A stretch of 64,000 nucleotides of DNA from Flavobacterium sp. CS20 (GTDB lineage: Bacteria > Bacteroidota > Bacteroidia > Flavobacteriales > Flavobacteriaceae): positions 2,694,501-2,758,500 of the forward strand of contig NZ_CP073015.1 of assembly GCF_018080005.1 (NCBI RefSeq). Reading direction: 5' to 3'. A program made the translations under genes and the position numbers. The notes beneath the pieces were generated by a model. The model had not been told where the DNA came from, did not search any database, and saw only the letters and a program-made list of their open reading frames with translations. Below, piece by piece: positions 24,376 to 58,469 of this stretch (position 1 is its first letter; every line of letters begins with the position of its first letter).

Positions 24376-25373
24376 ATGAATATTGAGTCATTAAAAAATA
24401 AAAAAATATTAGTTACTGGTGCGACTGGTTTTATAGGTTCAAATCTTTGTGAGTTTTTGTTAAAAAATGATATACAAGTCAGAGGCTTAGATAATTTTGC
24501 AACAGGTCACCATCAAAATATCAAAGAAATTTTAGACCAAAAGAAATTTGAATTTATAGAAGGTGATATTCGTGATTTTGAAACTTGTAAATCTGCTTGT
24601 CAAGACATTGATTTTGTTCTACATCAAGTCGCTTTAGGTTCTGTGCCACGCTCTATTGAAAACCCAATTCTGACAAACAAAGCCAATATCGATGGGTTTT
24701 TAAATATGCTTGTAGCTTCAAAAGATAACGGGGTTAAACGTTTTGTATATCTTGCTAGTTCTTCCACTTATGGCGATTCTAAATCTTTACCAAAAATTGA
24801 AGACAACATTGGTAAACCTTTATCGCCATACGCCATCACTAAATATGTCAATGAATTATATGCAGAAAACTTTAAATTGATATATGATTTAGATACAATT
24901 GGTTTGCGTTATTTTAATGTTTTTGGCAGAAAACAAGATCCCAACGGTGCATATCTGCCGTAATTCCAAAATTTGTCATTCAACTCATGAAGCACAGAAG
25001 TCCAACAATAAACGGTGACGGCACTTTTTCTCGTGATTTTACTTATATAGACAATGTCATTCAGATGAACATTTTGGCTTTAACAACAACTAACAAAAAA
25101 GCACTTAATGAAGTTTACAATACAGCCGTAGGAGATCGCACAACAATCAAACAAATGTCAAACTTGTTAAAAAAATTCTTATCAAAATACGATTCTAAAA
25201 TTGCTGATATACCTATAAATCATGGTCCAAACCGCCAAGGCGATGTGCCACACTCATTGGCTTCAATCGATAAAGCCACAAATCTTTTAGGGTATAAACC
25301 TTCCCATAAATTTGAAGAGGGTTTACAACAAGCTGTAAAATGGTATTGGAAAAACTATTCTAAACATACTTAA
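24376..25373 (+). pseudogene. UDP-N-acetylglucosamine 4-epimerase-like (TviC/WbpP), frameshifted
   Basis: The first part (195 codons) has the Rossmann GATGFIGSN, the catalytic YAITK and [16 protein letters not shown]. It then stops at 24961-24963. The next frame continues from about residue 196 with [21 protein letters not shown] and runs to a normal C-terminus. One base is missing between 24954 and 24955: TAT followed by CTGCC, where homologous Ala-Ala codons would read TAT GCT GCC. Restoring it gives 332 residues, the family length. It is either a real null allele or a sequence error; see findings. It forms a pair with the dehydrogenase upstream. Confidence 0.9.
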
Positions 25374-26429
25374 ATGTCATATCAAAAAAAAATACTGATT
25401 CTTGGTGGAGCAGGTTTTATAGGAAGTCATGTGGTTCGTAGATTTATAAAAAAATATCCAAACTTTCAAATTTTCAACCTTGACAAATTGACTTATGCAG
25501 GCAATCTTGAAAATTTAAAAGACATAGAAAAAGCTGAAAACTACACATTTTTAAAAGTAGATATTTGCGATAGAAAAACTATAGAACAACTCTTTAAAAA
25601 GCATAGATTTGACACCGTAATTCACTTAGTTGCCGAATCTCATGTAGATCGCTCAATTACTAATCCATTTGCATTTGTAGAAACCAATATTATGGGGACT
25701 TTAAATTTACTTCATGCAGCACAAAATGTGTGGAAAGATAGCAACAGCGAAAAATTATTTTATCATATCAGCACAGATGAAGTTTATGGTACTTTAGAAA
25801 AAACAGGACTTTTTACAGAAGAAACACCCTACGATCCCAATTCACCATATTCCGCATCTAAAGCCAGTTCTGACCACTTTGTAAGAGCATTTGGAGAAAC
25901 TTATGGTTTACCTTATATTATCAGCAATTGTTCTAATAATTATGGACCAAATCAATTTCCTGAAAAACTCATTCCTTTGTTTATAAACAATATCATCAAT
26001 CATAAACCTTTACCTGTTTATGGAGATGGCAATTACACAAGAGACTGGCTTTATGTTATCGATCATGCCATTGCAATTGATGTGATTTTTCAAAAAGGAA
26101 AACTTGGAGAAACCTATAATATTGGTGGTTTTAATGAGTGGAAAAATATCGATCTCGTAAAAATCCTTTGCCAACAAATGGATGATAAACTCAACAGAAC
26201 AGCAGGCGAAAGTGAAAAACTTATCACTTTTGTAAAAGATAGACCAGGACATGATTTGCGCTATGCTATTGATGCCTCAAAAATCTATAAAGAATTAGGT
26301 TGGAAGCCTTCAGTTACCTTTGAAGAAGGCTTAAGCAAAACCATAGATTGGTACCTCCAAAACCATGCTTGGTTAAAAAATGTTACCAGTGGCGACTATC
26401 AAAAATATTATGAAAAGCAATATTTATAA
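25374..26429 (+). CDS. rmlB: dTDP-glucose 4,6-dehydratase
   Basis: The 351-residue SDR enzyme has GGAGFIGSH at its N-terminus (about residues 9-17), STDEVYG, and the catalytic YSASK. ESHVDRSI and CSNNYGPNQFPEKLIPL are signature segments of RmlB. It converts dTDP-glucose to dTDP-4-dehydro-6-deoxyglucose. It starts immediately after the epimerase stop codon (no gap). rmlA follows 22 bp later; rmlC and rmlD are not in the window. Confidence 0.95.
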   Translation: MSYQKKILILGGAGFIGSHVVRRFIKKYPNFQIFNLDKLTYAGNLENLKDIEKAENYTFLKVDICDRKTIEQLFKKHRFDTVIHLVAESHVDRSITNPFAFVETNIMGTLNLLHAAQNVWKDSNSEKLFYHISTDEVYGTLEKTGLFTEETPYDPNSPYSASKASSDHFVRAFGETYGLPYIISNCSNNYGPNQFPEKLIPLFINNIINHKPLPVYGDGNYTRDWLYVIDHAIAIDVIFQKGKLGETYNIGGFNEWKNIDLVKILCQQMDDKLNRTAGESEKLITFVKDRPGHDLRYAIDASKIYKELGWKPSVTFEEGLSKTIDWYLQNHAWLKNVTSGDYQKYYEKQYL

Positions 26430-26451
26430 CTAATCTCAAAAATAACTCAAA

Positions 26452-27321
26452 ATGAAAGGCATAGTACTAGCAGGTGGATCAGGAACCAGATTGCATCCAC
26501 TGACTTTAGCAACGTCTAAACAGCTATTACCCATTTATGATAAACCGATGATATATTACCCTTTATCGGTGTTAATGCTCGCAGGTATAAAGGATATTCT
26601 AATCATTTCAACACCAGAAGATTTGCCAAATTTTAAGAGATTGTTGGGCGACGGTTCAAAATTTGGCATCGCATTGAGTTACAAAGAGCAACCTTCGCCA
26701 GATGGTTTAGCTCAAGCTTTTATTATTGGTGAAGATTTTATCGGTCATGACAACGTTTGTTTAGTTTTGGGCGATAATATTTTTCACGGTGCAGGATTAC
26801 AAAATTTGCTCAATAATGCTGTAAAAAATGTTGAAAATGAGCAAAAAGCGGTTATTTTTGGCAATTATGTTAATGATCCTGAACGCTATGGCGTAGCAGA
26901 ATTTGACCAAAACAAAAATGTAATCAGTATAGAAGAAAAACCTAAAATTCCAAAGTCTAATTATGCTGTAGTTGGGCTCTACTTTTATCCTAATTCGGTG
27001 GTTAGAATAGCCAAAGATGTTAAACCATCAAACCGAGGTGAACTTGAAATCACATCAGTAAACCAACAATATTTAAGTGAAGACAAGCTTAAAATGCAAA
27101 TTCTTAGTCGTGGTTTTGCATGGCTAGATACAGGAACCCACGAAGCCCTTACCGAAGCTACCGAATTTGTAAAAGCTGTAGAAAAACGAACTGGTCTCAA
27201 AATTGCTTGCTTAGAAGAAATCGGTTTAAACAAAAATTGGATTGATAAACAGCATATCGCCAAACAAATAGAAAACACTAAGGGCAATTACTATGAATAT
27301 CTTAAATCTATTCTAAAATAA
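26452..27321 (+). CDS. rmlA: Glucose-1-phosphate thymidylyltransferase
   Basis: The 289-residue protein has the nucleotidyltransferase signature GGSGTRLHP (about residues 7-15), then [27 protein letters not shown] and EEKP. These and the length match RmlA, which makes dTDP-glucose from glucose-1-phosphate and dTTP. The genes rmlB-rmlA are adjacent, in the order reverse to the pathway. They supply an activated 6-deoxysugar for surface polysaccharide. Confidence 0.96.
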
Positions 27322-27326
27322 TAGTC

Positions 27327-27752
27327 ATGAAAAAAACAGCCATCATTGTTTCGGGATATTTTAATCCGATTCACAAAGGGCATTTAGAATATTTTTTAAA
27401 TGCTAAAGATCATGCTGATAAGCTTTTTGTCATCGTTAATAACGATTTGCAAAGAAAACTAAAAGGCAGTAAACCCTTTCAAGATGAAGATGAACGTTTG
27501 TTTATTGTCAGTAACATTAAACCTGTTGATAAAGCATTTCTGTCTATAGATAAAGACCGAACAGTAAAAGCATCTATCAAAAAAATATTTGATGAGTATA
27601 AAGATAATTACGAATTTATTTTTGCTAATGGTGGAGATCAAGACAATCAAAGTATTCCCGAAGCAGAAATTTGTAACAAATTAGGGATTAAGCTTTTAGA
27701 TGGTTTGGGTGATAAAATTCAGTCCAGCAGTTGGTTGTTGGAAGACAATTGA
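27327..27752 (+). CDS. Cytidylyltransferase-like nucleotidyltransferase
   Basis: The 141-residue protein has the HxGH nucleotidyltransferase motif in GYFNPIHKGHLEYF (about residues 10-23), and IQSSSWLL near the end in the place of the family's ISTS-type motif. FANGGDQDNQSIPEAE is the substrate-side strand. The family includes glycerol-3-phosphate cytidylyltransferase and heptose-phosphate adenylyltransferase; the exact substrate is not determinable. It lies 5 bp after rmlA, the last intact gene of the cluster. Confidence 0.82.
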   Translation: MKKTAIIVSGYFNPIHKGHLEYFLNAKDHADKLFVIVNNDLQRKLKGSKPFQDEDERLFIVSNIKPVDKAFLSIDKDRTVKASIKKIFDEYKDNYEFIFANGGDQDNQSIPEAEICNKLGIKLLDGLGDKIQSSSWLLEDN

Positions 27753-28373
27753 TAAACTAAAAATTTGATTAAAATAATTTACCATCAAAACTAATAACAA
27801 CATCAAATTATTTAATTTGTCACAATAAGACAATAAACGTCCTATCGTGAGTAGGTATTTAGAAAGATTACAGGATATTAAAGCTTGGCTTAAGGCTGAG
27901 TCTATTGGCATTGGTGATATTCTGAAACGCTTAGAAGCTCAGGATATGAAGGTTTCTCGACGTCAAATCAATCGAGATTTTAGTGCTATTCAGTCTATGT
28001 TGGAGGATAGTGAAATGCTTAAGCATTTTTATAAAGATGGTCAAAAATATTTTTATATCCATACAGCAACTCCTTTTAAATCTGAAAGGGTTGCGATAGA
28101 AACCACCGAGATTTATCACACCAATTTCTACAATCAAATCCTTACTGATGAAATTCAGTTGTAACTAATCAGTGTCAAAAATAAGACTATAAATTTTGGA
28201 TAATACAAACTGAGCATATATTTTCTTTGTGCTTATTTCAATTTTTTAAAAAAAATTTCAAATAAGCCACTCATTAGAGCTTGATTTTAAAAATCAGACC
28301 TTTATCAACATTTTTAACTTTTTGGATTGATAACTAATTGGTTAATAATTTGTTTGTTACAAACATACCACCC

Positions 28374-28381
28374 TACATTTG
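28374..28381 (+). promoter_or_regulatory. Candidate transposase promoter (TTG-N17-TACATTTG)
   Basis: A TTG at 28354-28356 and TACATTTG at 28374-28381 are 17 bp apart, matching the Bacteroidota -33/-7 consensus. It lies just 12 bp before the TTG start of the transposase, which would leave a very short leader. Confidence 0.4.
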
Positions 28382-28393
28382 TAAGAAAAAAAG

Positions 28394-29758
28394 TTGGAAA
28401 AGGATAAGCTTATAGAATCACTCTTGCAGAAGGTAGAAGAACTTTCTAAAAAGCTAATTGCTTTAGAATTAGAAAATAGTCAACTTAAAGCACGACTTAC
28501 CAAATATGAAACTCCAAAAAACAGTAATAATAGCTCCATACCACCCTCAAAGGATGAAAATAGACCAAAGAGGAAAAGCCTAAGAATAAAGACAGGGCGT
28601 AAGCCAGGTGGGCAAACAGGAAGAAAAGGCAATACTTTGAAGATGGTTGAGATACCTGATGTTACAGAAGAACACATACCAGATTATTGTAACTGTTGTG
28701 GAAACGACCTTTCATCACTTCCACATCAATATGCAGGAAGTCGACAGGTATTTGACATCCCTGAAATAAAAATAAAAGTCACAGAACCACAAGGTTTATA
28801 AAAAAGTTTGTCCTTGCGGTTGTGAAACAAAAAGCGACTATCCATCACAAGCAAATGCACCCGTAAGCTATGGGAATAATATTGAAAGTTTAATAGGATA
28901 TTTTCATACCAGACAATACTTGCCTTTTAAGAGAATGCAAGAAATGTTCAATACGGTTTTTAATATTCCTATAAGTGAAGGAGGAATACACTATTTATTA
29001 AACAAACTTGTCACTAAAGCTGAACCTGCATATAATCTGATAAAACAAGAAATAGCAAACTCAAAATCACCTATCGGTAGCGATGAAACAGAGTAAAAGT
29101 ATCAGGAGACAAAAACTGGGCGTGGACATGGCAAAATGAAAAAGCAACCTTTATTACCATAACTGATAATAGAGGACAAAAAAGTATAGAACAAACCTTT
29201 GAAAATGGTTTTGAAAATGCTGTGTTAGTGCACGATTGTTGGAAGAGTCATTTCAATACCAACGCTCAATCACACCAAATTTGCATGGCACATTTACTTC
29301 GGGATTTAAACTATCTAACTGAAAAATACGATCATAAATGGAGTAGAGCTTGCAAAAACTTATTTTTAAAAGCCATCAACTTTAAGAAAAATATAAAAGA
29401 TATAGCCTTTAACAAGGATTGTCCAATAAAGAAAAGTATAGAAAAAAGAATGGATATCATCTTAAATCATGATCCGCCAAAAGAACATAAAGAATTAATA
29501 ACTTTTAAAAAAAGACTTATAAAATACAGGAACTATATCTTTACATTCCTCTATCATCTGGATGTACCTCCAGATAACAACGCCTCTGAAAGAGCAATAA
29601 GAAATATAAAAGTAAAACAGAAAATCTCTGGACAATTTAGATCAGAACAGGGCTGTGATAACTTTGCCATACTTAGATCTGTAACAGATTCTTGTTTAAA
29701 AAATCAGCAATCAGTTTTATCTACACTAAATATTATTGCTAATTTGCGGACTGATTAG
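28394..29758 (+). pseudogene. IS66-type transposase (TnpC), frameshifted twice
   Basis: The N-terminal coiled-coil region (LLQKVEELSKKLIALELENS) and the NSSIPPSKDE segment are typical of IS66 transposases. A zinc-finger-like C-x2-C pair (CNCCGN) follows, and then a helix-rich catalytic region with SDET (catalytic Asp), HDCWKSH and the C-terminal PPDNNASERAIRN (catalytic Glu). An extra G near 28793 shifts the frame and a missing G near 29091 (before AGTAAAA) shifts it again. With both repaired the protein has 454 residues. The start is TTG. Since the IS ends are intact, these may be sequence errors. Confidence 0.9.
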
Positions 29759-30392
29759 TTACATTCAGTTTAATTTAGAGTTGATACAAACCGCTATCAA
29801 GGAGCAAAAAAGGCTAAAAATAAAATTGATAAAAGACGATGAAACCAGTGATAATTTAGATGTTGATACTGAAAATGTAGTGGTTTGCCCTGTTAAGATG
29901 GTCTATCACAGAAACAGTTACTATTTGGCTTGTTTTAATGCTGAATTAAAAGAAGTCGAAGTTTTTGGTTTAAGGCAACTTAAAAATATTGAGTTAGGCA
30001 AACCTTTTAATAACTTCAAATTACTAGAAAATCAGGTTAAAAAGGAACTCAAAACCCGTTTTGGCGTAACCAAAAATATCAACAATAAAGTCTATGATAT
30101 TGAAATTAAATTTACTCCAGTTTTGGGTCGGTTTATCGAAAATCATCATTGGCATGAATCACAAAAATTTAAAAGTGTTAACGGCGATTATATCTTATAC
30201 TTAAAATGTGGTATCAATAGAGAGTTGATGGGTTGGTTATTTCAGTGGATGTATAATGTCAAAATTGTAAAACCTTTATTGCTCAAGCAACTTTACAAAA
30301 AAACTTTAAAAGAATCTGAATTAATTATAAAAGATCAAAATCCTTTTGTGTATAGAAATATCTTTACAGACAAAGTTGATAGTAGATTGTGA

Positions 30393-37168: not shown

Positions 37169-38656
37169 ATGAAAATATACGCCTTTCTCCTTTTATGTTT
37201 TGTTTTGGTTATAACCACTTCAAAATTAAAAGCCCAAAACAACCAACTTGATTCTTTACAAACACAAAATGACAGCATCCAATCATTTACCTCAACAGAA
37301 AAAACACTAAAGATAGGTGATATTGAAAAAGCACCACAAAAAATTATTCCTATAGAAGGCTTTAGCTTTAAAAGTTTGTGGCGTGGTCTTTTAGGAATGT
37401 TTGTTTTGTTGACTATTGCATTTGCTTTTAGTGCCAATCGAAAAGTCATCAGTTGGCGTACGGTTATTATTGGGTTAATTTTACAGTTGATATTGGCTTT
37501 TGGTATTTTAGAAATAGAATGGGTAAAAGCTATTTTTGATTTTGTCGGCAATATTTTTGTTCAAATCTTAAACTTTACAGCAGCTGGCGACGAATTTTTG
37601 TTGGGTGATTTGATGGATCAAGACACTTATGGTTATATCTTTTTGTTTCAAGTTTTACCAACCATCATTTTTTTCTCGGCTTTAACTTCAATTTTATTTT
37701 ATCTCGGCATCATACAAGTTGTTGTTCGTGGTTTAGCCTGGCTTCTTTCTAAAGCTTTAGGCGTTTCAGGTGCTGAAGCTTTAAGCGTTGCTGGTAATAT
37801 TTTTCTCGGGCAAACCGAATCACCTTTAATGATAAAAGCTTATCTAGAACGCATGACACGTTCAGAAATTTTATTAGTAATGATTGGTGGTATGGCTACA
37901 GTAGCAGGTGGTGTTTTAGTCGCTTATATCGGTTTTTTAGGTGGTAATAATCCAGCTATGCGATTAGAGTTTGCAAGGCATTTATTAGCCGCTTCGGTAA
38001 TGGTCGCACCTGGTGCTATTGTCATTTCAAAAATTCTTTATCCGCAACAAGCTAAAGTTGACAATTCAGCAGAAGTATCTATGGATAAAATTGGCTCTAA
38101 TATTTTAGATGCCATTGCCAATGGCACAACCGAAGGCTTGCGATTGGCCGCTAATGTTGGTGCAATGCTATTGGTATTTGTGGCTTTAATTGCTATGATC
38201 AATTACGGGTTAGACGCTTTTGGCGGTCTTGTAGGTTTAAACGATTTTGTAGCTCAAAACACACCATATGAAAAATTTTCTCTCGAAGCTATATTAGGCA
38301 CTATTTTTTATCCTGTAATGTGGTTAATAGGTGTTGCAAAAGAAGATTCAATGTTGATGGGACAACTTTTAGGTATAAAACTGGTTGCCAGTGAATTTGT
38401 TGGCTATATTCAATTGGCTGAGCTAAAGGATTTGGGTAGTGCTATTCATTTTAAATATGAAAAGTCTATCATTATGGCGACTTATATGCTTTGTGGTTTT
38501 GCCAACTTTGCTTCTATTGGTATTCAGATTGGTGGTATTGGGTCTTTAGCACCAGGGCAACGCAAAACTTTATCACAGTTTGGTATGCGTGCTTTGCTTG
38601 GTGGCACATTAGCATCACTGATGTCTGCAACAATAGCTGGAATGATTTTAGGCTGA
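37169..38656 (+). CDS. NupC/CNT-family nucleoside transporter
   Basis: The 495-residue protein has a short signal-like N-terminal helix and a low-complexity stretch (to about residue 65), then the CNT fold. Conserved segments include GVSGAEALSVAGNIFLGQTESPLMIKAYL (shown in two parts: GVSGAEALSVAGN and GQTESPLMIKAY), MATVAGGVLVAYIGFLGG, and the C-terminal CGFANFASIGIQIGGIG. This is a Na+- or H+-coupled nucleoside permease. The N-terminal extension is common in Bacteroidota homologues. It is convergent with rodA. Confidence 0.93.
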   Translation: MKIYAFLLLCFVLVITTSKLKAQNNQLDSLQTQNDSIQSFTSTEKTLKIGDIEKAPQKIIPIEGFSFKSLWRGLLGMFVLLTIAFAFSANRKVISWRTVIIGLILQLILAFGILEIEWVKAIFDFVGNIFVQILNFTAAGDEFLLGDLMDQDTYGYIFLFQVLPTIIFFSALTSILFYLGIIQVVVRGLAWLLSKALGVSGAEALSVAGNIFLGQTESPLMIKAYLERMTRSEILLVMIGGMATVAGGVLVAYIGFLGGNNPAMRLEFARHLLAASVMVAPGAIVISKILYPQQAKVDNSAEVSMDKIGSNILDAIANGTTEGLRLAANVGAMLLVFVALIAMINYGLDAFGGLVGLNDFVAQNTPYEKFSLEAILGTIFYPVMWLIGVAKEDSMLMGQLLGIKLVASEFVGYIQLAELKDLGSAIHFKYEKSIIMATYMLCGFANFASIGIQIGGIGSLAPGQRKTLSQFGMRALLGGTLASLMSATIAGMILG

Positions 38657-43106: not shown

Positions 43107-44137
43107 TTATTTGATTAACACAGGCTTAAAGCGTTCAAGATCTTTTAGAGTAATGCCAGTACCTCTTACAATAGCTCTTAAAGGGTCTTCGGCAATAAAA
43201 ACAGGAAGATCGGTTTTTTGAGAGAGTCTTTTATCTAAGCCTCTTAGCATAGAACCGCCACCTGCCAAGTAAATACCAGTATTGTAGATATCAGTCGCCA
43301 ACTCAGGTGGTGTTTGAGACAAGGTTTCCATTACGGCATCTTCCACTCGTAGAATAGATTTGTCTAAAGCTTTAGCGATTTCACGGCTAGATATTTCTAC
43401 TTGTTTTGGTTTTCCTGTCAACAAGTCTCGTCCTTGCACACTCATATCTTCAGGAGGAGTTTCCAAATCTTCTGTCGCCGCCCCAATTTGTATTTTTATC
43501 TTTTCTGCGGTTCGTTCACCTACAAAAAGATTGTCTCTTGCGTGCGCATATAATAGATAATATCATTGGTAAAAACATCGCCAGCAATTTTAACAGATTT
43601 GTCACAAACAATTCCGCCGAGTGCAATCACAGCAATTTCTGTGGTTCCACCGCCAATGTCCACAATCATATTGCCTTTGGGTTGCATGATATCAACACCA
43701 ATACCAATAGCGGCAACCATAGGTTCGTGAATTAAATAGACTTCTTTGCCATTAACACGTTCTGCACTATCTTTTACCGCTCGCATTTCCACTTCTGTAA
43801 TACCACTTGGGATACATATTACCATGCGTAATGATGGTGAAAACAAGCGTTTTTTTAAGGCTGGTATTTCTTTGATAAACATGCTTATCATTTGCTCACT
43901 GGCATCAAAATCTGCAATCACACCATCTTTTAATGGTCTAATGGTTTTTATATTCTCATGGGTTTTGCCTTGCATCATTGAAGCTTCTTTGCCAGCTGCA
44001 ATAATTTTTCCAGACACACGATCTCTGGCAACTATAGACGGTGCGTCTATAACGACTTTATCGTTGTGAATAATCAGTGTATTGGCTGTTCCTAAATCAA
44101 TCGCTATATCTTCGGTTAAAAAATCAAAAAAACCCAT
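43107..44137 (-). pseudogene. mreB: Rod-shape actin MreB, frameshifted
   Basis: The N-terminal frame (44137-43520) has the actin-like phosphate motifs DIAIDLGTANTLI and DIGGGTTEIAVI. It ends in a wrong-frame tail after YYMRTQ. The correct frame resumes as VGERTAEKIKIQIGAA and continues to SLSQKTDLPVF, with the C-terminal GTGITLKDLERF. The shift lies between about 43532 and 43546 (a net loss of one base, or gain of two). Repair gives about 342-343 residues, the normal size. MreB organises the elongasome, so loss would matter; see findings. Confidence 0.92.
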
Positions 44138-44174: not shown

Positions 44175-45707
44175 TTAATGTTTAAAATGTCGTATTCCTG
44201 TCATCACCATGCTCATATTATTTTCATTACAATAATTGATGCTCAATTCATCTTTGATAGAGCCACCTGGTTGTATCACGGCAGATATTCCTGCTTTATC
44301 AGCAATCTCTACACAATCTGGGAATGGAAAAAACGCATCACTGGCCATGACTGCTCCTTTTAAGTCAAATTTGAAATGCTTTGATTTTTCAATACTTTGC
44401 TTGAGTGCATCTACACGTGAAGTTTGTCCAGTTCCACTTGCAATCAGTTGTTTGTTTTTAGCTAAAACAATGGTATTAGATTTGGTATGCTTACAAATTT
44501 TTGAAGCAAAAACTAAATCATCTATTTCAGTATCAGACGGCGATTTTTGAGTTACTGTTTTAAAATGTTCTTTTTGGTCGGTTTTTAAGTCTCTGTCTTG
44601 AACCAAAACACCATTAAGACAAGTTCTGATCATTTTGTTTTTAAAAGCACTTTGTTTTAAAATAAGAATTCTTCTGTTTTTCTTTCCTTTTAAAATTTCA
44701 AGGGCTTCGTCTTCAAATTTTGGTGCAATGACGACTTCACAAAACAGCTGATGAATTTCTTCAGCTGTTGCTTTGTCTATTTTAGTGTTTGCAACTAAAA
44801 TGCCACCAAAAGCCGAAACAGGATCGCCAGCCAGAGCATCTTTATAAGCTTCTAAAATTGTATCGCGTTGTGCCAAACCGCAAGCATTGTTATGTTTTAA
44901 AACGGCAAATGTTGGTGCTTCTCCTTGAAATTCGTTAATCAAATTTACCGCAAGATCTATGTCTAACAAATTGTTATAAGACAAAGCTTTGCCGTGCAAT
45001 TGCTCAAAAACCTCATCAGAATTACCATAGAAATTTGCATTTTGATGTGGGTTTTCGCCATAACGTAAAGGCATAACCTCTTTTTTAGACAATCTCAACT
45101 CTGCATTGGTTTGGGGTTGATTGAGATATCCAAATATTTTAGTATCATAATGAGATGAAACAGCAAAGGCATTAACGGCAAAAGCTTTTCGCTCTTCAAA
45201 ACTACTTTCAGCCACAGGCTTATTCAAAATATCTAAAACAGCTTGATAATCTGACTGAGAAGCCACACACAACACATCTTTATAGTTTTTGGCTCACGCA
45301 CGAATCAGTGAAATACCACCGATGTCTATTTTTTCAATAATATCTTCATGATTTGATCCCGAAGCTACCGTTTCTTCAAAAGGATAAAGGTCAACAATGA
45401 CCAAGTCTATTTCGGGGATGTCAAATTTGGTTAAAGTTTTTTTGTCACTTTCATTATCTCTTCTGCTTAAAATGCCACCAAAGACTTTTGGGTGAAGCGT
45501 TTTAACACGACCTCCGAGAATGGAAGGATAATTGGTAAGACTCTCTACAGCAGTTACCTTAGCACCACAAGATTCTATAAATTTTTGAGTGCCACCTGTA
45601 GAATATATTTGAATATTGTGTTTTTTTAAAGCTTCGATAATCGGCTCTAATCCATCTTTGTGAAATACAGAAATCAGAGCAGATTTTATAGGTTTTTGAG
45701 GATTCAT
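44175..45707 (-). CDS. purH: Bifunctional AICAR formyltransferase/IMP cyclohydrolase, with in-frame TGA
   Basis: The frame is open over 511 codons except for one TGA at codon 138 (45294-45296). The N-terminal IMP cyclohydrolase domain has KTLHPKVFGGIL and the segment before the stop is KIDIGGISLIRA. After it the same frame continues as AKNYKDVLCVASQSDY and carries the transformylase motifs MPLRYGENPHQNANF and LKHNNACG. The length is normal (510 residues). The codon at 138 is Ala or similar in other PurH proteins, so this is a nonsense change or an error, e.g. an insertion plus deletion of one base each. The enzyme finishes de novo purine synthesis. Confidence 0.9.
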
Positions 45708-45973: not shown

Positions 45974-46195
45974 ATGTACTGGACTTTAGAGTTAGCGTCA
46001 TATTTGAGTGATGCTCCTTGACCGGCAACCAAAGACGAATTGATAGACTATGCCATACGAACTGGTGCACCTCTTGAAGTAGTAGAAAATTTACAGTCTA
46101 TTGAAGATGAGGGTGATACTTACGATTCTATTGAAGAAATTTGGCCAGATTATCCTACTGATGAAGATTATCTCTGGAACGAAGATGAATATTAA
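45974..46195 (+). pseudogene. DUF2795 small protein with in-frame TGA
   Basis: The frame encodes 73 residues: MYWTLELASYLSDAP, then TGA (46019-46021), then PATKDELIDYAIRTG, EIWPDYPTDEDYLWNEDEY. As I recall, flavobacterial DUF2795 homologues have Trp at this position (DAPWPATKDEL), so TGG has become TGA. The family is short, acidic and very conserved in flavobacteria; its role is unknown. It has a strong promoter and terminator. A single-base error or a real stop are both possible. Confidence 0.85.
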
Positions 46196-46608: not shown

Positions 46609-49600
46609 ATGGGCATTTTAGATACCGTACTTAAAACTTTTGTTGGTGATAAAACCAAGAAAGACCTTAAACAAATATATCCAATTGTTGATCAAATCAA
46701 ATCTTATGAGTCTGAACTCGAGAAACTTGATTTAGAACAGCTTAGACAAAAAACACTTGATTTTAAAGCTAAAATTAAAGCGGCTAACGCAGAAGAGTTA
46801 GACAAGATTGAAGCACTAAAAAAAGATGCCGATACTTGTGAAGATATCGATGAAAAAGAAAATATTTATACCCAAATAGATGACTTAGAAGACGTGGTCT
46901 ATAAAAATTCTGAAAAAGTTTTGGATGACATTATGCCTGAAGCTTTTGCCGTTGTTAAAGAAACCGCCAAACGCTTTTTTCACAACACTGAACTTCGTGT
47001 AAAAGCTACAGAATTTGATCGTGAGCTTTCTGCTGAAAAAGACTACATCAATCTTGATGGTGATTACGCTATCTGGTCTAACTCTTGGGATGCCGCTGGA
47101 AAACCAATCACTTGGGATATGATACATTACGATGTGCAACTTATCGGCGGTATCGTTATGCATCAAGGCAAAATAGCCGAAATGCAAACAGTGGAAGGAA
47201 AAACCTTAGTAGCGACTTTACCGATGTATCTCAACGCATTGACGGGCAACGGTGTTCATCTCGTCACAGTCAACGACTATTTGGCTAAACGTGATAGTGC
47301 TTGGATGGCTCCAATTTTTCAATTTCACGGCTTGAGTGTTGATTGTATAGACTACTACAAACCCAACTCTGCTGAACGTCGCCGAGCTTATAAATGCGAT
47401 ATCATTTACGGAACAAACAACGAGTTTGGCTTTGATTATCTCCGTGATAACATGAGCCATTCAACTGATGATTTGGTGCAACGCAAACACAATTATGCCA
47501 TTGTTGATGAGGTCGATTCGGTTTTAATTGACGAAGCTCGAACACCCTTAATCATTTCTGGTCCAGTTCCTAAAGGAGATGTGCATGAATATGACCAACT
47601 GAAACCTAAAATCAATCAGCTTGTTGAGATTCAAAGAAAATTCTTAGTCAAAGAACTTGCCGAAGCTAAAAAACTCATTGCTAATGGCGATACTAAAGAA
47701 GGTGGTCTGAAACTTTACCGAGTCTTTAGAGGTTTGCCTAAAAACAAAGCTCTCATCAAATATTTGAGTGAAGAAGGCATCAAACAACTCTTGCAAAAAA
47801 CTGAAAACCACTACATGCAAGACAACAATCGCGAAATGCCAACCGTTGACAAAGACTTGTATTTTGTGATTGAAGAAAAAAACAACCAAATTGACTTAAC
47901 CGACAAAGGTGTCGATTTTCTATCAGGAGAAGATGATCCTGACTTTTTTGTGATGCCCGAAATAGGAACAGAAATCGCTAAAATAGAAAATGAAGGGCTT
48001 TCTAAAGAAGAAGAAATTCAAAAGAAAGAAGAACTTTATAGAGATTTTGGCGTAAAAAGTGAACGTATTCACACTATGCGTCAATTGCTAAAGGCTTACA
48101 CGTTATTCGAAAAAGACACCGAATATGTAGTCATGGACAACAAAGTGAAAATTGTTGATGAGCAAACTGGTCGTATCATGGACGGACGCCGATATTCTGA
48201 TGGTTTACATCAAGCTATTGAAGCTAAGGAAAATGTAAAAATTGAAGATGCCACCCAAACTTTTGCAACTATTACTTTGCAAAATTATTTCCGAATGTAT
48301 AGTAAACTGTCAGGGATGACAGGAACAGCGGTAACCGAAGCTGGCGAGTTTTGGGAAATTTACAAACTGGATGTGATTGAAATTCCGACCAACAAACCCA
48401 TAGCACGAGACGACAAGGAAGATATGGTTTACAAAACTAAACGCGAAAAATATAACGCCATTATAGACGATGTTGTCAAATTATCAAAAGCAGGAAGACC
48501 AAGATTGATAGGAACAACTTCTGTTGAAATTTCTGAATTGCTTAGCAAAATGCTCAACATCAGAAAAATTAAACACAACGTTCTTAACGCCAAATTACAC
48601 AAACGCGAAGCCGAGGTCGTTGCCGAAGCTGGAAAAAGCAGTGTGGTAACCATAGCGACCAATATGGCTGGACGTGGTACAGATATAAAACTTACCGATG
48701 AAGTTAAAAAAGCTGGTGGTTTAGCCATCGTCGGAACAGAACGCCACGATTCTAGACGTGTGGACAGACAGTTACGCGGGCGTGCAGGTCGTCAAGGAGA
48801 CCCAGGAAGCTCACAGTTTTATGTCTCTCTTGAAGACAATCTTATGCGTTTATTTGGTAGTGAACGTATTGCCAAACTCATGGATCGTATGGGGCTCAAA
48901 GAAGGCGAAGTGATTCAGCATAAAATGATTTCAAACTCTATTGAACGTGCCCAGAAAAAAGTAGAAGAAAATAATTTTGGTATTCGTAAACGTCTTTTAG
49001 AATACGATGATGTTATGAACGCTCAACGTGAGGTGGTTTACAAACGTCGTTTTCACGCATTATTTGGCGAACGCTTGCGTATAGATATTGCCAATATGAT
49101 TTACGATACAGCAGAAAGCATTGTCAACATCAACAAACAAGCAGAAGATTATGCCAATTTTGATTTTGAACTCATCCGCTTTTTCTCTATGGAATCACCT
49201 GTTGATGAAACGGAATTCAAAAAAACATCTATAGACAAGCTTATTGATAAAGTTTACGAAACAGCTTATAAACAGTATGAAGAAAAAATGGTAAAAAGTG
49301 CTGAGCAAGCTTTTCCAGTCATCAAACAAGTTTATGAAACTCAAGGCGATAAATTTGAACGTATTGCTGTGCCTTTTACCGACGGACAAAAAACACTTCA
49401 AGTTGCTACTAACTTGAAAAAAGCTTACGAAAGCAACGGTAAGCAATTGATAACTGATTTTGAAAAAAACATCACTCTCGCTATTATTGACGAAGCTTGG
49501 AAAAACCATTTACGCAAAATGGACGAACTCAAACAAAGCGTTCAATTAGCCGTACACGAGCAAAAAGATCCTTTGCTGATTTATAAGTTTGAAGCCTTTG

Positions 49601-49974
49601 AGCTCTTCAAAGTTATGCTTGATGAGGTCAATAAAGACGTGGTGTCATTCTTGTTTAAAGGAGAATTACCTGAAAGAGACAACACTCATATTCAAGAAGT
49701 TAGACAAACCCGCCGACCTGAAAAAGTTCAAACCCGAAAAGACGAAATTCAAAATCTAGATGAACGTGCAGCCGCTTCAAGACAGGCTGGTCAAAATGCT
49801 AGCAACCAAGGCAATCAAGTTGTAGAAACTATAGTTAGAGACAAACCTAAAATAGGAAGAAACGATATTGTGACCATTAAAAATATTGAAACTGGGGAAA
49901 ACAAAAGCTTAAAATATAAAAAAGCTCTTCCTATGCTCAATCAAGGCCAATGGGTTTTGGTTGAACAAAATTAA
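46609..49974 (+). CDS. secA: Preprotein translocase ATPase SecA, with altered Walker A
   Basis: The 1121-residue protein has the SecA domains in order: NBD1 ([27 protein letters not shown]), the preprotein-binding region, NBD2 ([24 protein letters not shown]) and the helical scaffold ([11 protein letters not shown]). The length exceeds the E. coli 901 residues because of insertions usual in Bacteroidota, and the C-terminal zinc motif is absent, also usual. The Walker A motif reads [10 protein letters not shown], with Val at residue 195 where SecA proteins have Gly (TGEGKT). SecA powers protein export through SecYEG. The Val codon GTG is one base from GGG. Confidence 0.97.
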
Positions 49975-49987
49975 GCCTAATAAAGTC

Positions 49988-50476: not shown

Positions 50477-50524
50477 AAGCTAAAGTTCAACTTAATTTTT
50501 TATATTTAACATTAAAAAAAGAAA

Positions 50525-51504: not shown

Positions 51505-51558
51505 TAAAAACTGATGGCTTAACTCAGTTTTTTAACATAACTAAAACATTAGTTAAAA

Positions 51559-52047: not shown

Positions 52048-52103
52048 AAATAAATCAAAACAGAAATATCTTAGCACAGAGCTATATCTTAAAGTGAATG
52101 TTT

Positions 52104-52111
52104 TAACTTTG
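52104..52111 (+). promoter_or_regulatory. Candidate -7 element (TAACTTTG) for the flavin reductase
   Basis: TAACTTTG matches TAnnTTTG, 19 bp before the ATG. A -33 box is unclear. Confidence 0.4.
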
Positions 52112-52129
52112 TAAGACAAATTTTAAAAA

Positions 52130-53006
52130 ATGATAAGTTTTAATTCATCCGATTTAGAAACACCAGAAATTTATGGATACTTAGTTGTCGCCGTTGGTCC
52201 AAGACCTATTGCTTTTGCAAGCACTTTGAGCAAAGATGGTACTCCAAATTTATCACCGTTTAGTTTTTTTAATATGTTTAGTTCCAATCCACCAAGTATT
52301 GATTTTTTCACCATTAAGGCGGATGAGAAACAACACAACAAAACACACGCTTGTCAATTGTAAAGAAACCAAAGAAGTTGTTATCAATATTGTTAATTAT
52401 GATATTGTTCAGCAAATGTCTTTGTCAAGCACAGAATATAACGAAGGTGTTAACGAATTTGTAAAAAGCGGTTTAACGATGCTTAAATCTGATATTGTTA
52501 AGCCTTTTCGGGTTGAAGAATCTCCTGTTCAATTTGAATGTAAAGTAAAAGATATTATTGAGTTAGGTCAAGAAGGAGGAGCTGGAAATTTGATTGTTTC
52601 AGAAGTCGTAAAATTGCATATATCAGAATCTGTATTAGACGAAAACGGAAAAATAGATCAGTACAAGTTAGATCAAGTGGCTAGAATGGGAGGGAATTGG
52701 TACACAAGAGCCAACAGAGGTATGTTTGAAGTGCCAAAGCCTTTGTCGCAATTGGGTATAGGCGTAGATCAAATCCCTCAAAACATCAAAAACAGTAAAA
52801 TTTTAACTGGAAATGATCTCGGTAAGCTTGGTAATGTTGAGACTTTACCAGAAAAACATCAAATAGATGAATTTTTGAAAGAAGAACATCTGCTTGAATT
52901 TGTTAAACATTCTGATGATACAGGATTACACCAAAAAGCTCATGAATATTTAAAAGGAGATGATACCTTTGCGACTTGGTGTATTTTATTATCAAAAAAA
53001 TCATAA
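52130..53006 (+). pseudogene. Flavin reductase-family protein, frameshifted
   Basis: The first frame begins FNSSDLETPEIYGYLVVAVGPRPIAF and continues through NLSPFSFFNMFSSNPP. Near 52294 one extra A (CCAAGTATT) shifts it; the other frame resumes as VLIFSPLRRMRNNTTKHTL and runs to the end (FATWCILLSKKS). Removing one A gives 291 residues, matching the flavin reductase split-barrel family with the DNTTKHTL-type segment. These enzymes bind FMN and use NAD(P)H. DUF3127 follows 5 bp later. Confidence 0.85.
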
Positions 53007-53010
53007 TATT

Positions 53011-53385
53011 ATGGAAGTAGAAGGCAAAATAAAAGTAATTGGCGAAACTAAAGAATACGGAAGCAACGGTTTTCGCAAACGCGAAGTCGTCATCACAACA
53101 GAAGAGCAATATCCACAGTTTTTGAACATTGAATTTATTCAAGACAAAACCCAATTAGTTGATAAATTTTCTGTAGGTGAAAACGTGAAAATCGGAATTA
53201 ATCTTAAAGGTCGAGAATGGGTGAGTCCACAAGGCGAGACCAAATACTTTAACTCTATTCAAGGTTGGCGAATAGAGCGTTTAGACCAAAGCCAAAATCA
53301 AGATGCTTCAATTCCGCCAACAGATCAATTTGAACCTGTAGATGATCTTAACGAAGAAGATCCTGAAGATGACTTACCGTTTTGA
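53011..53385 (+). CDS. DUF3127 protein (OB-fold-like)
   Basis: The start at MEVEGKIKVIGETKEYG gives 124 residues; an upstream frame start at 52960 overlaps the flavin reductase. The conserved core is GFRKREVVITTEEQYPQFL and GREWVSPQGETKYFNSIQGW. The C-terminal tail is acidic and ends DDLPF, like the tails of single-stranded-DNA-binding proteins. DUF3127 proteins have an OB-like fold; function unproven. Confidence 0.9.
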   Translation: MEVEGKIKVIGETKEYGSNGFRKREVVITTEEQYPQFLNIEFIQDKTQLVDKFSVGENVKIGINLKGREWVSPQGETKYFNSIQGWRIERLDQSQNQDASIPPTDQFEPVDDLNEEDPEDDLPF

Positions 53386-53408
53386 TTTGTGTAAAATTCT
53401 TTTGAAGT

Positions 53409-55094
53409 CTAATCAACAACTTTAATCAAAGTATCTTTTGAATTTGTAGTAAAGCCAAGCTTAGAATTTATACTTATTGTAAAAGTATAAATGCTGGTGT
53501 TTAATGTTTCAGGTACTTTAAAAGTTGTTTTTAAAGTTTTGATTTCATTTGCCTTTAATGTCTTAAGCTCTGGCAAGACTAAACGCACAGATTCAAATTT
53601 TGTTGGGTCGTCTTTTAAAAAAGCAATGTAAAAACTAAGAGGCATTTGTTTATCATCAAAGCGATAGTCAATATTGGTTGTGTTTGAAATTTCTAAAATG
53701 ATATCATAAGTTTTCCCTTTTTTCAAAGTCTTATCCTTTATATCATATTTAATTTTGATATATCTTGAATCTTGATAGTAATCAACAAACCAACCTTTAA
53801 AAAGATTATCATTAAATTGATATTCAGAGGCGTAATGTGAATTCATATCATATATAAAAACTTTTTGTCCAAAATATTTTTTCTCCCAAGCCCACAATTC
53901 AAATTGGGTATGTCGTTTTCTATAAAAAGGTTTATTAGCCACTTTGGCTTCTGAGTTTGCAAAATAATAGGTCGCAGGTTTTTGAAAAGAACCTTTAAAT
54001 ATGACGGGTTTATCTTCTACAAATTCTTTCATTGTCTGGTAGTAAGATGTTTTATTGTCATCAAAACTCTGAGCTGGAAGTTTGTCTAACGAAATTAAAA
54101 CTCTAGCTACTAAAACTAAACTAACCAAACTAACTACAACATATTTTATGGAATTATAAGATTGCGACAACTGGAGTAAATAGGGATAAACAATATAAAT
54201 TATAGGAATACTTACAATAGTTGTCCAATGAGCCTCAACTCGACCTTTCAAAGTCATCAAGGTGAAAAATAATAGAATGCCAGCACCGACGAATCGCATA
54301 GTTTTTTTAAAATTATCATTTTCCTTTTTATTGAAAATTAAAATCAAAAACAAACTCAAGAAAAAAGGATTAAAAACAGCAAACTGTCCTGGTATAAATT
54401 CTAAAATGTATTTTATTTTAAAACCTTGAGAGCGATCAACTAAGTGGTATTTGAATGAAATAAAATCGTTTTGAAATAGCCAAATAAAATGTGGCAAAAC
54501 AAGTATCAAAACCATTACAAAGAGAAACCAAAATCGCTTTTGCTTGATAAGTCGCCAATGCAAAACCAAAACTAAAAATATAATCAAAAAGGCGTGGTAT
54601 TTGCTATAAATCATACCAGCAACAGTAATGGCTAACAAAAAGATGTCTGATGCTTTTCTTCGGGTTAAAAAATGCTTAAAAGCCCAAGTAAAGCCTGCAA
54701 AAAAGAAAAGTAAGGCTGTATCGGGTGCGGTCAAAAAACCATATACAGAAAACATCGGCAAACTAAAAGCCAATCCATAAAAGTACAAAACTTGTGAAGT
54801 AGTTTTTCTGTATTTATCATCTAAGGTTTGCCAAATTATCCAAACGGTTAATGTATGAACAACAACACTAAAAAAGCGTACTGCCCAAAGATCGTTAAAA
54901 AATAAGTCTCCAAGATAGGTTAACACTGCTACCATTGGCGGATGATCAAAATATCCCCAATCTAAATATTGACCCCAAACATAATAATAGGCTTCGTCGT
55001 GCTTTATACCTGTTGTTGAGATTTGAATTAAATCAATAATAAACCAAAGCCCAAGTAAAATATAAAATAGCGTTTTGCTATTTAAGGGTTTCAT
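53409..55094 (-). CDS. GT39/ArnT-like membrane glycosyltransferase
   Basis: The ATG at 55094 gives 561 residues; a TTG two codons upstream is an alternative. The protein has an N-terminal helix, then KHDEAYYYVWGQYLDWGYFDHPP, with the Asp-Glu pair and HPP typical of the dolichyl-phosphate-mannose-type (GT-C) transferases, and about ten more helices to residue ~330. A soluble C-terminal domain follows. It probably transfers a sugar from a polyprenyl phosphate carrier to lipid or protein at the membrane. Substrate unknown. Confidence 0.87.
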   Translation of the reverse strand: MKPLNSKTLFYILLGLWFIIDLIQISTTGIKHDEAYYYVWGQYLDWGYFDHPPMVAVLTYLGDLFFNDLWAVRFFSVVVHTLTVWIIWQTLDDKYRKTTSQVLYFYGLAFSLPMFSVYGFLTAPDTALLFFFAGFTWAFKHFLTRRKASDIFLLAITVAGMIYSKYHAFLIIFLVLVLHWRLIKQKRFWFLFVMVLILVLPHFIWLFQNDFISFKYHLVDRSQGFKIKYILEFIPGQFAVFNPFFLSLFLILIFNKKENDNFKKTMRFVGAGILLFFTLMTLKGRVEAHWTTIVSIPIIYIVYPYLLQLSQSYNSIKYVVVSLVSLVLVARVLISLDKLPAQSFDDNKTSYYQTMKEFVEDKPVIFKGSFQKPATYYFANSEAKVANKPFYRKRHTQFELWAWEKKYFGQKVFIYDMNSHYASEYQFNDNLFKGWFVDYYQDSRYIKIKYDIKDKTLKKGKTYDIILEISNTTNIDYRFDDKQMPLSFYIAFLKDDPTKFESVRLVLPELKTLKANEIKTLKTTFKVPETLNTSIYTFTISINSKLGFTTNSKDTLIKVVD

Positions 55095-55203
55095 AAACAA
55101 ATAACTGAATTAATTTTTTATTAATTAGACAAAATAAAAAGACGACTTAACAAAAAGATTTAAGCTTAAAAACCTGCAATAAGTTTTTGTAGATACAAAA
55201 AAA

Positions 55204-55228
55204 TCCAAGGGAATTAAAATCCCTTGGA
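55204..55228 (-). terminator. Rho-independent terminator after lpdA
   Basis: TCCAAGGGA and TCCCTTGGA form a perfect 9-bp stem with a 7-nt loop. On the minus strand a run of seven T follows. It lies 10 bp past the lpdA stop. Confidence 0.9.
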
Positions 55229-55237
55229 GAAGTGTTT

Positions 55238-56629
55238 TTATAGGTGAATAACCTCGCCATAAGCATCAGCAACCGCTTCCATAACGGCTTCACTCATGGT
55301 TGGGTGAGGGTGAATAGCTTTTAAGACTTCATGTCCTGTAGTTTCCAATTTACGAGCTACAACAGCTTCGGCAATCATATCGGTCACACCAGCACCAAGC
55401 ATATGGCAACCAAGCCATTCGCCGTATTTAGCATCAAAAATCACTTTCACAAAACCGTCTTTAGTGCCAGCAAAGACGGCTTTACCAGAAGCTGAAAATG
55501 GGAATTTGCCAACTTTAAGTTCGTAACCTGCATCTTTGGCTTGCTTTTCAGTCATACCAACGCTTGCTATTTCTGGATTAGAATAGGTACATCCAGGAAT
55601 ATTGCCATAGTCAATCGGTTCAACTTTTTGTCCAGCAATTTTTTCAACACATAAAATGCCTTCAGCAGAGGCGACGTGAGCTAAAGCTGGACCGTGAGTA
55701 ACATCGCCAATGGCGTAATAGCCTGGGACATTGGTTTGGTAATAATCATTAACTACAATTTTATCTTTATCGGTTTTGATGCCTACATCTTCTAAACCTA
55801 TGTTTTCGATATTGGTTTTAATACCTACTGCAGACAAAACGATATCGGCTTCTAATGTTTCTTCGCCTTTTTTGGTTTTTACTTTAGCTTTGACTTTTTT
55901 GCCTGATGTATCTACGCTTTCTACAGAAGAATTTGTCATGATTTTAATCCCGCGTTTTTTGTAAATGCGTTCAAATTGTTTTGAAACTTCTTCATCTTCA
56001 AGAGGAACAACATTTGGTAGAAATTCCACAATGGTTACATCAGTTCCCATATCGCTGTAAAAACTAGCAAACTCAACACCAATGGCACCCGAACCAACAA
56101 CTATCATAGATTTGGGTTGTTTGTCTAATGTCATGGCTTTTCGGTATTCAATCACTTTTTCGCCATCAATAGGTAAATTAGGTAATTCTCTTGCATGTGC
56201 ACCAGTAGCTATAATGATATGGTCAGCTTCGTAGTCTGTGGTTTTGTCTTTGTTATCTTTTACGCTAACTTTTTTTCCTTTTTTAACTGTGCCATAGCCT
56301 TCAAGGACATCAATTTTATTTTTTTTCATTAAAAACTGAACGCCTTTACTCATCCCGTTGGCGACTTCACGGCTACGCTTGATCACAGCAGAAAAATCTT
56401 TATCGGCTTTTTCAACTTTTAAGCCGTAATCTTCAGCGTGATTCAAATAATTAAAAACTTGAGCGCTTTTTAGTAAAGCTTTTGTTGGAATACAACCCCA
56501 ATTCAAACACACACCACCGAGGCTTTCTTTTTCTACAATTGCTGTTTTTAGACCCAACTGCGAAGCTCTTATGGCTGTAACATATCCGCCAGGACCGCTT
56601 CCTACTACTATGACATCATACTTACTCAT
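55238..56629 (-). CDS. lpdA: Dihydrolipoyl dehydrogenase (E3)
   Basis: The start at MSKYDVIVVGSGPGG gives 463 residues; the longer frame adds 11 unrelated residues. The FAD motif GSGPGG, the redox disulfide in GGVCLNWGCIPTKALL (CxxxxC), the NAD motif GSGAIGVEF, YAIGDV, and the C-terminal HPHPTMSEA catalytic His are all present. It reoxidises lipoamide in the pyruvate and 2-oxoglutarate dehydrogenase complexes, which fits pdhB at 33.6 kb. Confidence 0.97.
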   Translation of the reverse strand: MSKYDVIVVGSGPGGYVTAIRASQLGLKTAIVEKESLGGVCLNWGCIPTKALLKSAQVFNYLNHAEDYGLKVEKADKDFSAVIKRSREVANGMSKGVQFLMKKNKIDVLEGYGTVKKGKKVSVKDNKDKTTDYEADHIIIATGAHARELPNLPIDGEKVIEYRKAMTLDKQPKSMIVVGSGAIGVEFASFYSDMGTDVTIVEFLPNVVPLEDEEVSKQFERIYKKRGIKIMTNSSVESVDTSGKKVKAKVKTKKGEETLEADIVLSAVGIKTNIENIGLEDVGIKTDKDKIVVNDYYQTNVPGYYAIGDVTHGPALAHVASAEGILCVEKIAGQKVEPIDYGNIPGCTYSNPEIASVGMTEKQAKDAGYELKVGKFPFSASGKAVFAGTKDGFVKVIFDAKYGEWLGCHMLGAGVTDMIAEAVVARKLETTGHEVLKAIHPHPTMSEAVMEAVADAYGEVIHL

Positions 56630-56844
56630 GTTAAAATATTTTCTGATTATTATAATTTGCAATTTACTAATATTAGAGATAATGAGTGTTATTTTATATC
56701 TTTTTTAGTGGTTTACAGTGTAAATTTTAAAACGTTAAAATCTCTCTTTAACTTTTAGAAAACCTTATCAATTTAATATTCTTAGTTGTTATAGATTTTT
56801 TATCTTTAGACACTTTCAAAATAAAATTAAAAACTTAAATAATT

Positions 56845-58469
56845 ATGGGAAAAGGATTTTTTCAAGTGCCACCAGCGGTCAATGAACCTATTAAGTCTTA
56901 CGCTCCAGGTACACCAGAGCGAGAAGAAGTATTGCAAACGTATAAAACTATGTATGAGTCTCATATAGAAGCACCTCTGTACATAGGAAGTCAACAAATT
57001 AAGTCAGGCAATACAAAACCGATCAATCCACCTCACGACCATCAGCACGAAGTTGGTGTTTATCACAATGCAGAACAAAAACACGTACAACAAGCTATTG
57101 ACGAAGCATTAAATGCCAAACAAGCTTGGGCGGATTTACCTTGGGAACAACGTGCGACTGTATTTCTTAAAGCTGCAGATTTAATTTCAGGACCTTATCG
57201 TCAAAAACTCAACGCTGCAACTATGATTGGTCAAGGCAAAAATGTTTTTCAAGCCGAAATAGATTCTGCTTGTGAGATTTCTGATTTCTTGAGATTTAAT
57301 GTAGAATATATGAGTCAGATTTTTGAAGAACAACCAGAATCTGATTCTGAAGCGTGGAATCGTGTTGAACACCGACCTCTTGAAGGTTTTGTTTATGCTA
57401 TTACGCCTTTTAATTTTACGGCAATTGCTGGAAACTTGCCTACTAGTCTGCGTTGATGGGCAATGTTACGGTTTGGAAACCTAGCGACAGTCAAATATTT
57501 TCTGCCAATGTTTTAATGGAAGTTTTTCAGCAAGCAGGTATTCCTGACGGTGTTATCAATATGATTATTGGTGATCCTGAAATGATTACAGATACCATTT
57601 TGGCTCACGAGGAATTTTCGGGTATTCACTTTACAGGAAGCACGACTGTTTTTAAAGGAATTTGGTCAAAAATTGGTCAAAATATTCACAACTATAAATA
57701 CTACCCAAGAATTGTGGGTGAAACTGGAGGCAAGGATTTTATTGTTGCTCACAAATCTGCCAATCCAAAAGTGGTTTCAACAGCTTTGGCTAGAGGTGCT
57801 TTTGAATATCAAGGTCAAAAATGTAGTGCGGCTTCAAGGGCTTACATTTCCAAAAGTATTTGGCTAGAAGTAAAAAAAATGTTGATAGAAGATGTCAAAT
57901 CTTTTAAAATGGGTTCACCAGATGATATGAAAAATTTTATCAACGCCGTCATTCATGAAGTCGCTTTTGATAAACTCGCAAAATACATAGATCAAGCCAA
58001 AAAAAGTGATGAAGCTAAAATTATAGTTGGTGGAAGTTATGATAAATCTAAAGGCTGGTTCATAAACCCGACAGTGATTGAAACCACAAATCCGAAATAT
58101 GAAACCATGGAAACCGAACTGTTTGGTCCTGTGCTAACCATTTATGTTTACGATGATGATAAATATGAAGAAACCTTAGATTTAGTCAATGATACAAGCA
58201 TTTATGCACTTACAGGTTCTATCATTTCAACTGATCGCTATGCGGTGGCTTTAGCTACCAAAAAACTTGAAAACTGTGCAGGAAATTTCTACATCAATGA
58301 TAAATGTACAGGTGCTGTAGTCGGCAGACAACCTTTTGGTGGTGCAAGGTCAAGCGGAACTAATGATAAAGCAGGTTCTAAATTAAACCTACTGCGTTGG
58401 ACTTCTCCACGATTGATTAAAGAAACTTTTGTGCCTGCAACAGATTATAGATATCCTTTTATGGGATAA
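56845..58469 (+). pseudogene. pruA: L-glutamate gamma-semialdehyde dehydrogenase, frameshifted
   Basis: The first frame runs to NFTAIAGNLPTS and then stops; the next begins MGNVTVWKPSDSQ. At 57447-57448 the text reads AGT followed by CTGCG, where AGT GCT GCG (Ser-Ala-Ala) is expected. One G is missing. Repair gives 541 residues, the usual length of flavobacterial PruA. The catalytic Cys lies in YQGQKCSAASRA and the Glu in VGETGGKD. The enzyme oxidises glutamate semialdehyde in proline breakdown. No putA is nearby. Confidence 0.93.

Follow-up and report, generated by a model that had tools for sequence, protein, structure and literature searches.

Errors of nanopore sequencing that recur at modified bases have been described in other bacteria. 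Four mza-carrying strains of Listeria monocytogenes had nanopore errors at GCAGC, words of both the GCWGC and the GCSGC type being present (Chiou et al. 2023, PMC10687267), and in R10 nanopore data from Neisseria 74.76% of erroneous indels lie at or beside methylated sites, with methylation-related mismatches arising almost entirely from 5-methylcytosine (5mC) (Bogaerts et al. 2025, PMC12506013). A described enzyme for words of this type is M.BatI, a prophage-encoded GCDGC cytosine-5 methyltransferase that methylates GCAGC, GCTGC and GCGGC, not GCCGC, marking GCWGC on both strands and GCSGC on one (PMC8936443). Here we analyse a 64,000 bp stretch of the Flavobacterium sp. CS20 genome (the window; positions 2694501-2758500 of a single contig of 3,064,238 bases, listed completeness 96.33%, contamination 1.27%) in which conserved genes, among them mreB and purH, appear broken, and conclude that what looks like breakage of essential genes is very probably sequencing error, repeated at words that seem to be chemically marked, an artefact of a known kind.

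The Listeria mza strains resemble the present case in the words concerned (GCAGC/GCTGC and GCSGC), in an mza system that includes a methyltransferase, and in mismatches that outlast polishing (PMC10687267). The present genome is unlike them in being that of a flavobacterium and in showing frameshifts and stops besides mismatches, and the Listeria errors were established with Illumina reads and whole-genome amplification, whereas those described here are deduced from sequence alone. The Neisseria study concerns another species and does not name GCNGC-type motifs in the passages considered (PMC12506013). M.BatI marks the words that are changed here, but it comes from another phylum, and the likeness is one of target words (PMC8936443).

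The lesions themselves are as the initial annotation described them. With open reading frames (ORFs) from 1.2 Mb of a close relative, G010, as tblastn queries, frameshifts are seen in the sugar-nucleotide epimerase (24376..25373, plus strand; break at ~24952-24954), mreB (43107..44137, minus strand; ~43535-43540, where G010 has GCAGC), a flavin reductase-like gene (52130..53006, plus strand; ~52292-52296) and pruA, encoding L-glutamate gamma-semialdehyde dehydrogenase (56845..58469, plus strand; 57447), each of which is now spread over two frames. An in-frame TGA stands at 45294-45296 in an Ala-Ala-Ala stretch of purH (44175..45707, minus strand), and another at 46019-46021 inside the reading frame of the DUF2795 gene (45974..46195, plus strand), the remainder of which fits its family. 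Gene identities were checked on the pieces of these six genes and of an IS66-family transposase. Apart from its break mreB is whole, and it has a full-span match in 38 of the 39 relatives searched, free of stops in 37 of those 38. One in-frame TGA was also seen in mreB of another single-contig genome of the same order (G037:C1:1211579-1212559, listed 96% complete), possibly another assembly with such errors.

Further differences lie in frames or parts of frames that remain open. The break in the epimerase falls on two codons that read Ala-Ala both in G010 and in a same-species copy (see below), and additional Ala-Ala differences occur at 24424, 24628 and 24751 in the same gene; purH reads CTTGC at 44954, Leu-Ala in place of Ala-Ala; and pruA, whose break at 57447 is an Ala-Ala pair in G010, has GCGAC at 57154. 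A CNT nucleoside transporter (37169..38656, plus strand) is intact with hidden changes, namely GTCGC at 37919 and 38003 and GCGAC at 37589. At 47191, which had been listed together with the breaks, SecA (46609..49974, plus strand) does differ from G010, the Walker A motif MQTGEGKT being read as MQTVEGKT, but its frame is unbroken there; this Gly-to-Val change is probably another miscall.

Independent sequence from what appears to be the same species bears directly on these lesions. Three protein searches, with the best 120 matches of each listed, returned among those matches one 98-99% identical protein apiece (P0002, P0121 and P0241, each on 10 contigs, longest 79,861), an identity that would place all three in the same species; the closest match to PurH among the named relatives listed is from Mesonia, at 72%. 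P0121 is a full-length PurH (510 aa) and P0241 a full-length epimerase (332 aa), so that in the two broken genes compared the lesion is neither repeated in independent sequence nor common to the species. Counting the epimerase frameshift as one difference, the window departs from the three same-species proteins at 12 places, comprising 8 Ala-Ala pairs, 1 GCGAC word and 3 others (25050, 37412 and 45074); 9 of the 12 differences absent from the independent copies are therefore at Ala-Ala or GCGAC. The same copies keep 11 of the 12 Ala-Ala pairs that are present in at least 80% of relatives (25 of 27, 38 and 49 relatives used for the respective proteins), and the shortage of Ala-Ala in this genome is therefore mostly artefact. 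A real, proteome-wide avoidance of Ala-Ala is on the same count mostly rejected.

The IS66-family element (28161..29762, plus strand) offers an internal comparison. Its ends and target duplication were correctly recognised in the initial annotation, the 8-bp duplication lying at 28153-28160 and 29763-29770, as were the pieces of its transposase, with breaks near 28787 and 29090. Besides fragments, the genome carries this element in nine near-full copies, 99.4-100% identical, and none of the nine encodes a full-length transposase: the longest open frame per copy is 144-397 aa, and in the window the first-to-last transposase pieces span ~450 codons. The copies vary at nine internal places, including both breaks of the window copy; 7 of the 8 other copies differ from it at 28787-28788, and among the 9 copies 8 versions of 29322-29329 are seen. 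Every one of the four possible combinations of the differences at 28620 and 29322 occurs, which means that one or both of them arose more than once. Young insertion sequence (IS) copies broken independently of one another at the same points are what miscalling predicts. The insertion itself splits a WYL-domain gene (27847-28160 and 29763-30392, the domain in the downstream part), a disruption that looks genuine and is accompanied by the 8-bp target duplication.

The initial annotation placed the lesions in a 34-kb cluster, and here it does not hold. We sampled 20 more stretches of the same genome outside the window, 20 kb each (L numbers below denote stretches of this genome), and compared them together with the window against 138 G010 orthologues covering 133.9 kb, scoring several calls within one G010 gene as one gene. 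The window has 5 broken genes in 43.8 kb, and the other stretches have 7 in 90.1 kb (binomial p = 0.35), a density in the window that is ordinary for this assembly; in view of the similar density outside, an origin confined to this region, for example in a decaying island, is rejected. Other query sets detected no breaks in G010 (0 in 59.0 kb with ORFs of G019, a same-genus genome in one contig; 0 in 22.1 kb with ORFs of 18 named loci), and the named-loci ORFs detected 4 breaks in 12.1 kb of own sequence, 3 of which are window genes already counted; L205:2001, which came from these queries, is outside the breaks classified below. In-frame changes to error words number ~50 in 130.5 kb, and hidden damage therefore exceeds the visible breaks.

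This hidden change depends on the DNA word. In a motif-free scan of all 5-mers over 44,555 aligned codons, the G010 word most associated with amino-acid change is GCAGC (145 sites, 59%, z 7.1), and the corresponding word in own sequence is GCGAC (119 sites, 60%, z 6.7). What a relative writes as Ala-Ala (GCNGC) often appears in this assembly as GCGAC/GTCGC or GCAAGA/CTTGC, or else as a stop or a shift of frame; in codon terms, GCN GCN often becomes GCG ACx or GTC GCx. The 154 Ala-Ala pairs of G010 appear here as 52 kept, 24 GTCGC, 16 GCGAC, 5 GCAAGA, 5 CTTGC, 4 TCTGC and 48 other words, whereas the 59 Ala-Ala pairs of own sequence appear in G010 as 52 kept, 7 other and 0 error words. The third base is similarly fixed: it is G in 16 of 22 Ala-Thr pairs opposite Ala-Ala (5 of 147 elsewhere), and C in 24 of 34 Val-Ala pairs opposite Ala-Ala (20 of 173 elsewhere). 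GCGAC/GTCGC words in the Ala-Ala phase stand opposite GCNGC of G010 in 40 of 65 cases. Across ORFs, Ala-Ala occurs at 0.43 of expectation in this genome and at 0.96-1.04 in G010, G019 and G026. Differences are thus concentrated at specific words, as modification-mediated nanopore errors would have them.

Not every rare word belongs to this pattern. Setting 464 kb of this genome against G010 and G019 puts GCGC, CCGG, GGCC, GCAGC, GTAGAC and GTATAC at 0.04-0.20 of expectation (GCGC, CCGG and GGCC at 0.15-0.20, GTAGAC/GTATAC at 0.04-0.06). The nonsynonymous share of losses is 0.16-0.30 for GCGC/CCGG/GGCC (controls 0.15-0.45) against 0.69 for GCWGC; the loss of the former three is true avoidance, mostly synonymous and control-like, and restriction avoidance is by the same comparison rejected as the origin of the GCNGC changes. 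GCSGC, included as a control, also gave a nonsynonymous share of 0.68 (n = 32), and the word was therefore widened from GCWGC to GCNGC. Restriction-site avoidance remains a relevant comparison, in that GCGC/CCGG/GGCC and GTAGAC/GTATAC are rare here and HhaI-like and HaeIII-type genes are present, but such avoidance is real evolution, mostly synonymous, and leaves genes unbroken.

The visible breaks show related contexts. We classified 14, comprising the 12 based on G010 together with the DUF2795 gene and L207:18088, the latter detected with a G019 ORF and so outside the 12-gene set; L210:17090 (a stop ahead of the start codon) and L213:13141 and L210:12089 (gene ends) were left uncounted as breaks, and the labels were assigned by eye with the pattern already known. 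Five breaks coincide with Ala-Ala pairs (epimerase, purH, pruA, L211:9809 and L199:11459), and with mreB 6 of the 14 lie in GCNGC contexts. Three more are TGA codons at GGCC or GGNCC (L207:18088, L210:14345 and DUF2795, where TGA is followed by CC and the context is GGCC if the codon is Trp, which we take it to be), one adjoins GGTCC (L204:4320), and two are shortened A runs (L208:1721 and L199:8447). Genuine pseudogenes would be expected to carry lesions with no tie to a fixed DNA word, and here the GCNGC and GGCC/GGNCC contexts account for 6 and 3 of the 14. Recoding of TGA was considered and rejected: the purH codon stands opposite Ala, the residue that the same-species PurH also carries, and the codons at L207 and L210 stand opposite Trp.

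A mechanism that would account for these observations begins with methyltransferases of restriction-modification and defence systems that mark the DNA at several words, and with a basecaller untrained on these marks that would produce a few context-dependent misreadings. At GCNGC, chiefly in Ala-Ala pairs, the commonest misreading would be a swap of two neighbouring bases, so that GCGAC (Ala-Thr) or GTCGC (Val-Ala) results; GCAAGA or CTTGC (Ala-Arg or Leu-Ala) would be rarer products, and sometimes bases may be lost or gained or a stop created. At GGCC or GGNCC a Trp codon could become TGA, and some breaks may be homopolymer-length errors.

The genome encodes enzymes that could place such marks, although for GCNGC itself the writer is a candidate. 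There are seven full-length C5 (cytosine) methyltransferase genes and one fragment, with nuclease neighbours of HaeIII, Eco47II and Sau3AI types, and one of the methyltransferases is HhaI-like (E 2e-109). Loci L296, L297, L298, L299 and L301 hold HaeIII-, Eco47II- and Sau3AI-type restriction-modification, the HhaI-like methyltransferase and another methyltransferase with a type II nuclease match, in the same genome that strongly avoids GCGC, CCGG, GGCC and GTMKAC. A search for a Bsp6I-type (GCNGC) nuclease gave no match, and its controls were likewise matchless, so this search is uninformative. An operon at L322:5294-14161 (G000:C1:1703294-1712161) has the gene order of MZA systems, a C5 methyltransferase (L322:12884-14161, G000:C1:1710884-1712161) followed by MzaB, MzaC, MzaD and MzaE. 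Its scores stay below the curated equivalog cut-offs (MzaB 441.9/850 bits, MzaC 597.9/1500, MzaD 128/420, MzaE 351.6/1050) and its methyltransferase matches the DrmMII model best, and we therefore call it MZA-like; MzaC matches two separate ORFs and may therefore itself hold an error. Among 39 relatives (24 of the same genus), MzaB has a weak match in 13 and a comparable one in none (best E 2e-17, against 1.5e-132 for its own). By analogy with Listeria, where mza strains appear to do so, we give roughly even chances to the proposal that the methyltransferase of this operon marks GCNGC (GCDGC) in this bacteroidete.

Taken together, the preference of the initial annotation for read or consensus error is supported by the full-length same-species PurH and epimerase, the nine discordant IS copies and the motif-linked change found in stretches sampled across the genome, with the refinement that the errors systematically follow particular words and for the most part lie concealed as altered amino acids. 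We consider it almost certain that the breaks are errors of the consensus, and highly probable that they arose in a long-read assembly, most likely made from nanopore data only, as miscalls at modified bases together with some homopolymer errors. Ordinary long-read noise, meaning random and homopolymer indels that have nothing to do with DNA modification, would suit the two shortened A runs (L208:1721, L199:8447) and the two unassigned breaks of the 14, but it is improbable as a full account because the change is word-specific, with GCAGC and GCGAC leading the scan of all 5-mers, and because 5 of 12 breaks fall at Ala-Ala pairs, of which there are only 154 per 44,555 aligned codons. Pseudogenisation and strain mixture fit the data poorly. 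That selection against marked words exists in this genome, as the mostly synonymous avoidance of GCGC, CCGG and GGCC attests, and that the Ala-Ala loss at 38384 is common to the same-species copy, lend something to the proposal of genuine mutations, with real pseudogenes and real Ala-to-Thr/Val replacements under, for example, restriction pressure against GCNGC. We regard it as very unlikely: the same-species copies keep 11 of 12 conserved Ala-Ala pairs with PurH and epimerase full length, a selected replacement would leave the third base free rather than fixed as G or C, and the joint breakage of mreB, purH, greA-like genes and all nine IS copies is implausible. A consensus that merged the strains of a mixed population would be expected to give alternative versions at single sites, and the listed contamination is 1.27%, but such a mixture predicts neither one fixed word-to-word conversion across the sampled stretches nor breaks in conserved genes, and is barely credible.

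Several observations weigh against the error explanation and must temper it. Broken genes are only modestly more frequent here than in G010 (12 genes over 133.9 kb, compared with 7 calls in 4 genes over 126.3 kb of G010 in the reciprocal count; p = 0.049), and two of the 14 breaks, in the flavin reductase, where no motif was recognised in the break context, and at L211:1071, lack a recognised cause. Of the 54 GCGAC/GTCGC words that lie outside the Ala-Ala phase, none stands opposite GCNGC in G010, and none of the 31 out-of-phase GCNGC sites of G010 reads such a word in own sequence, an absence that we tentatively attribute to synonymous loss of GCNGC at those places; one out-of-phase case is seen against the same-species copy, at 37589, where Gly-Ser is read as Gly-Asp. 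Ala-Ala pairs lost to other words (48 of 154, against 7 of 59 in reverse) are in part unexplained or genuine, and the Val-Ala at 38384 in the transporter is written GTTGCC and is therefore no error word; this loss, common to P0002, looks genuine. Finally, the intact same-species copies of two broken genes, the spread beyond the window and the dependence on motif are shown; nanopore as the platform, methylation as the cause and the MZA-like operon methyltransferase as the likeliest GCNGC writer are what we infer.

Elsewhere in the window, a 25-30% GC patch holds a 911-aa ORF (59188-61923) with a LuxR-type helix-turn-helix near its C-terminus.

The error is of a kind already known, modification-mediated nanopore error if the platform is as supposed, and is not a real genomic feature. 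An annotation of this genome would show broken mreB and purH, its proteome would contain roughly a thousand wrong residues if the rate in the sampled stretches (50 sites in 130.5 kb) is extrapolated to 3.06 Mb, and studies of this species that deal with essentiality, auxotrophy, pseudogenes or selection would be led astray; such assemblies can be checked without reads by the signature in Ala-Ala and codon pairs. If the MZA-like methyltransferase does mark GCNGC, systematic nanopore errors would have a widespread source in MZA, its signature (Ala-Ala loss with an excess of GCG-AC and GTC-GC codon pairs) would be readable from assemblies without reads, and the assembly would be an unintended map of the organism's methylome.

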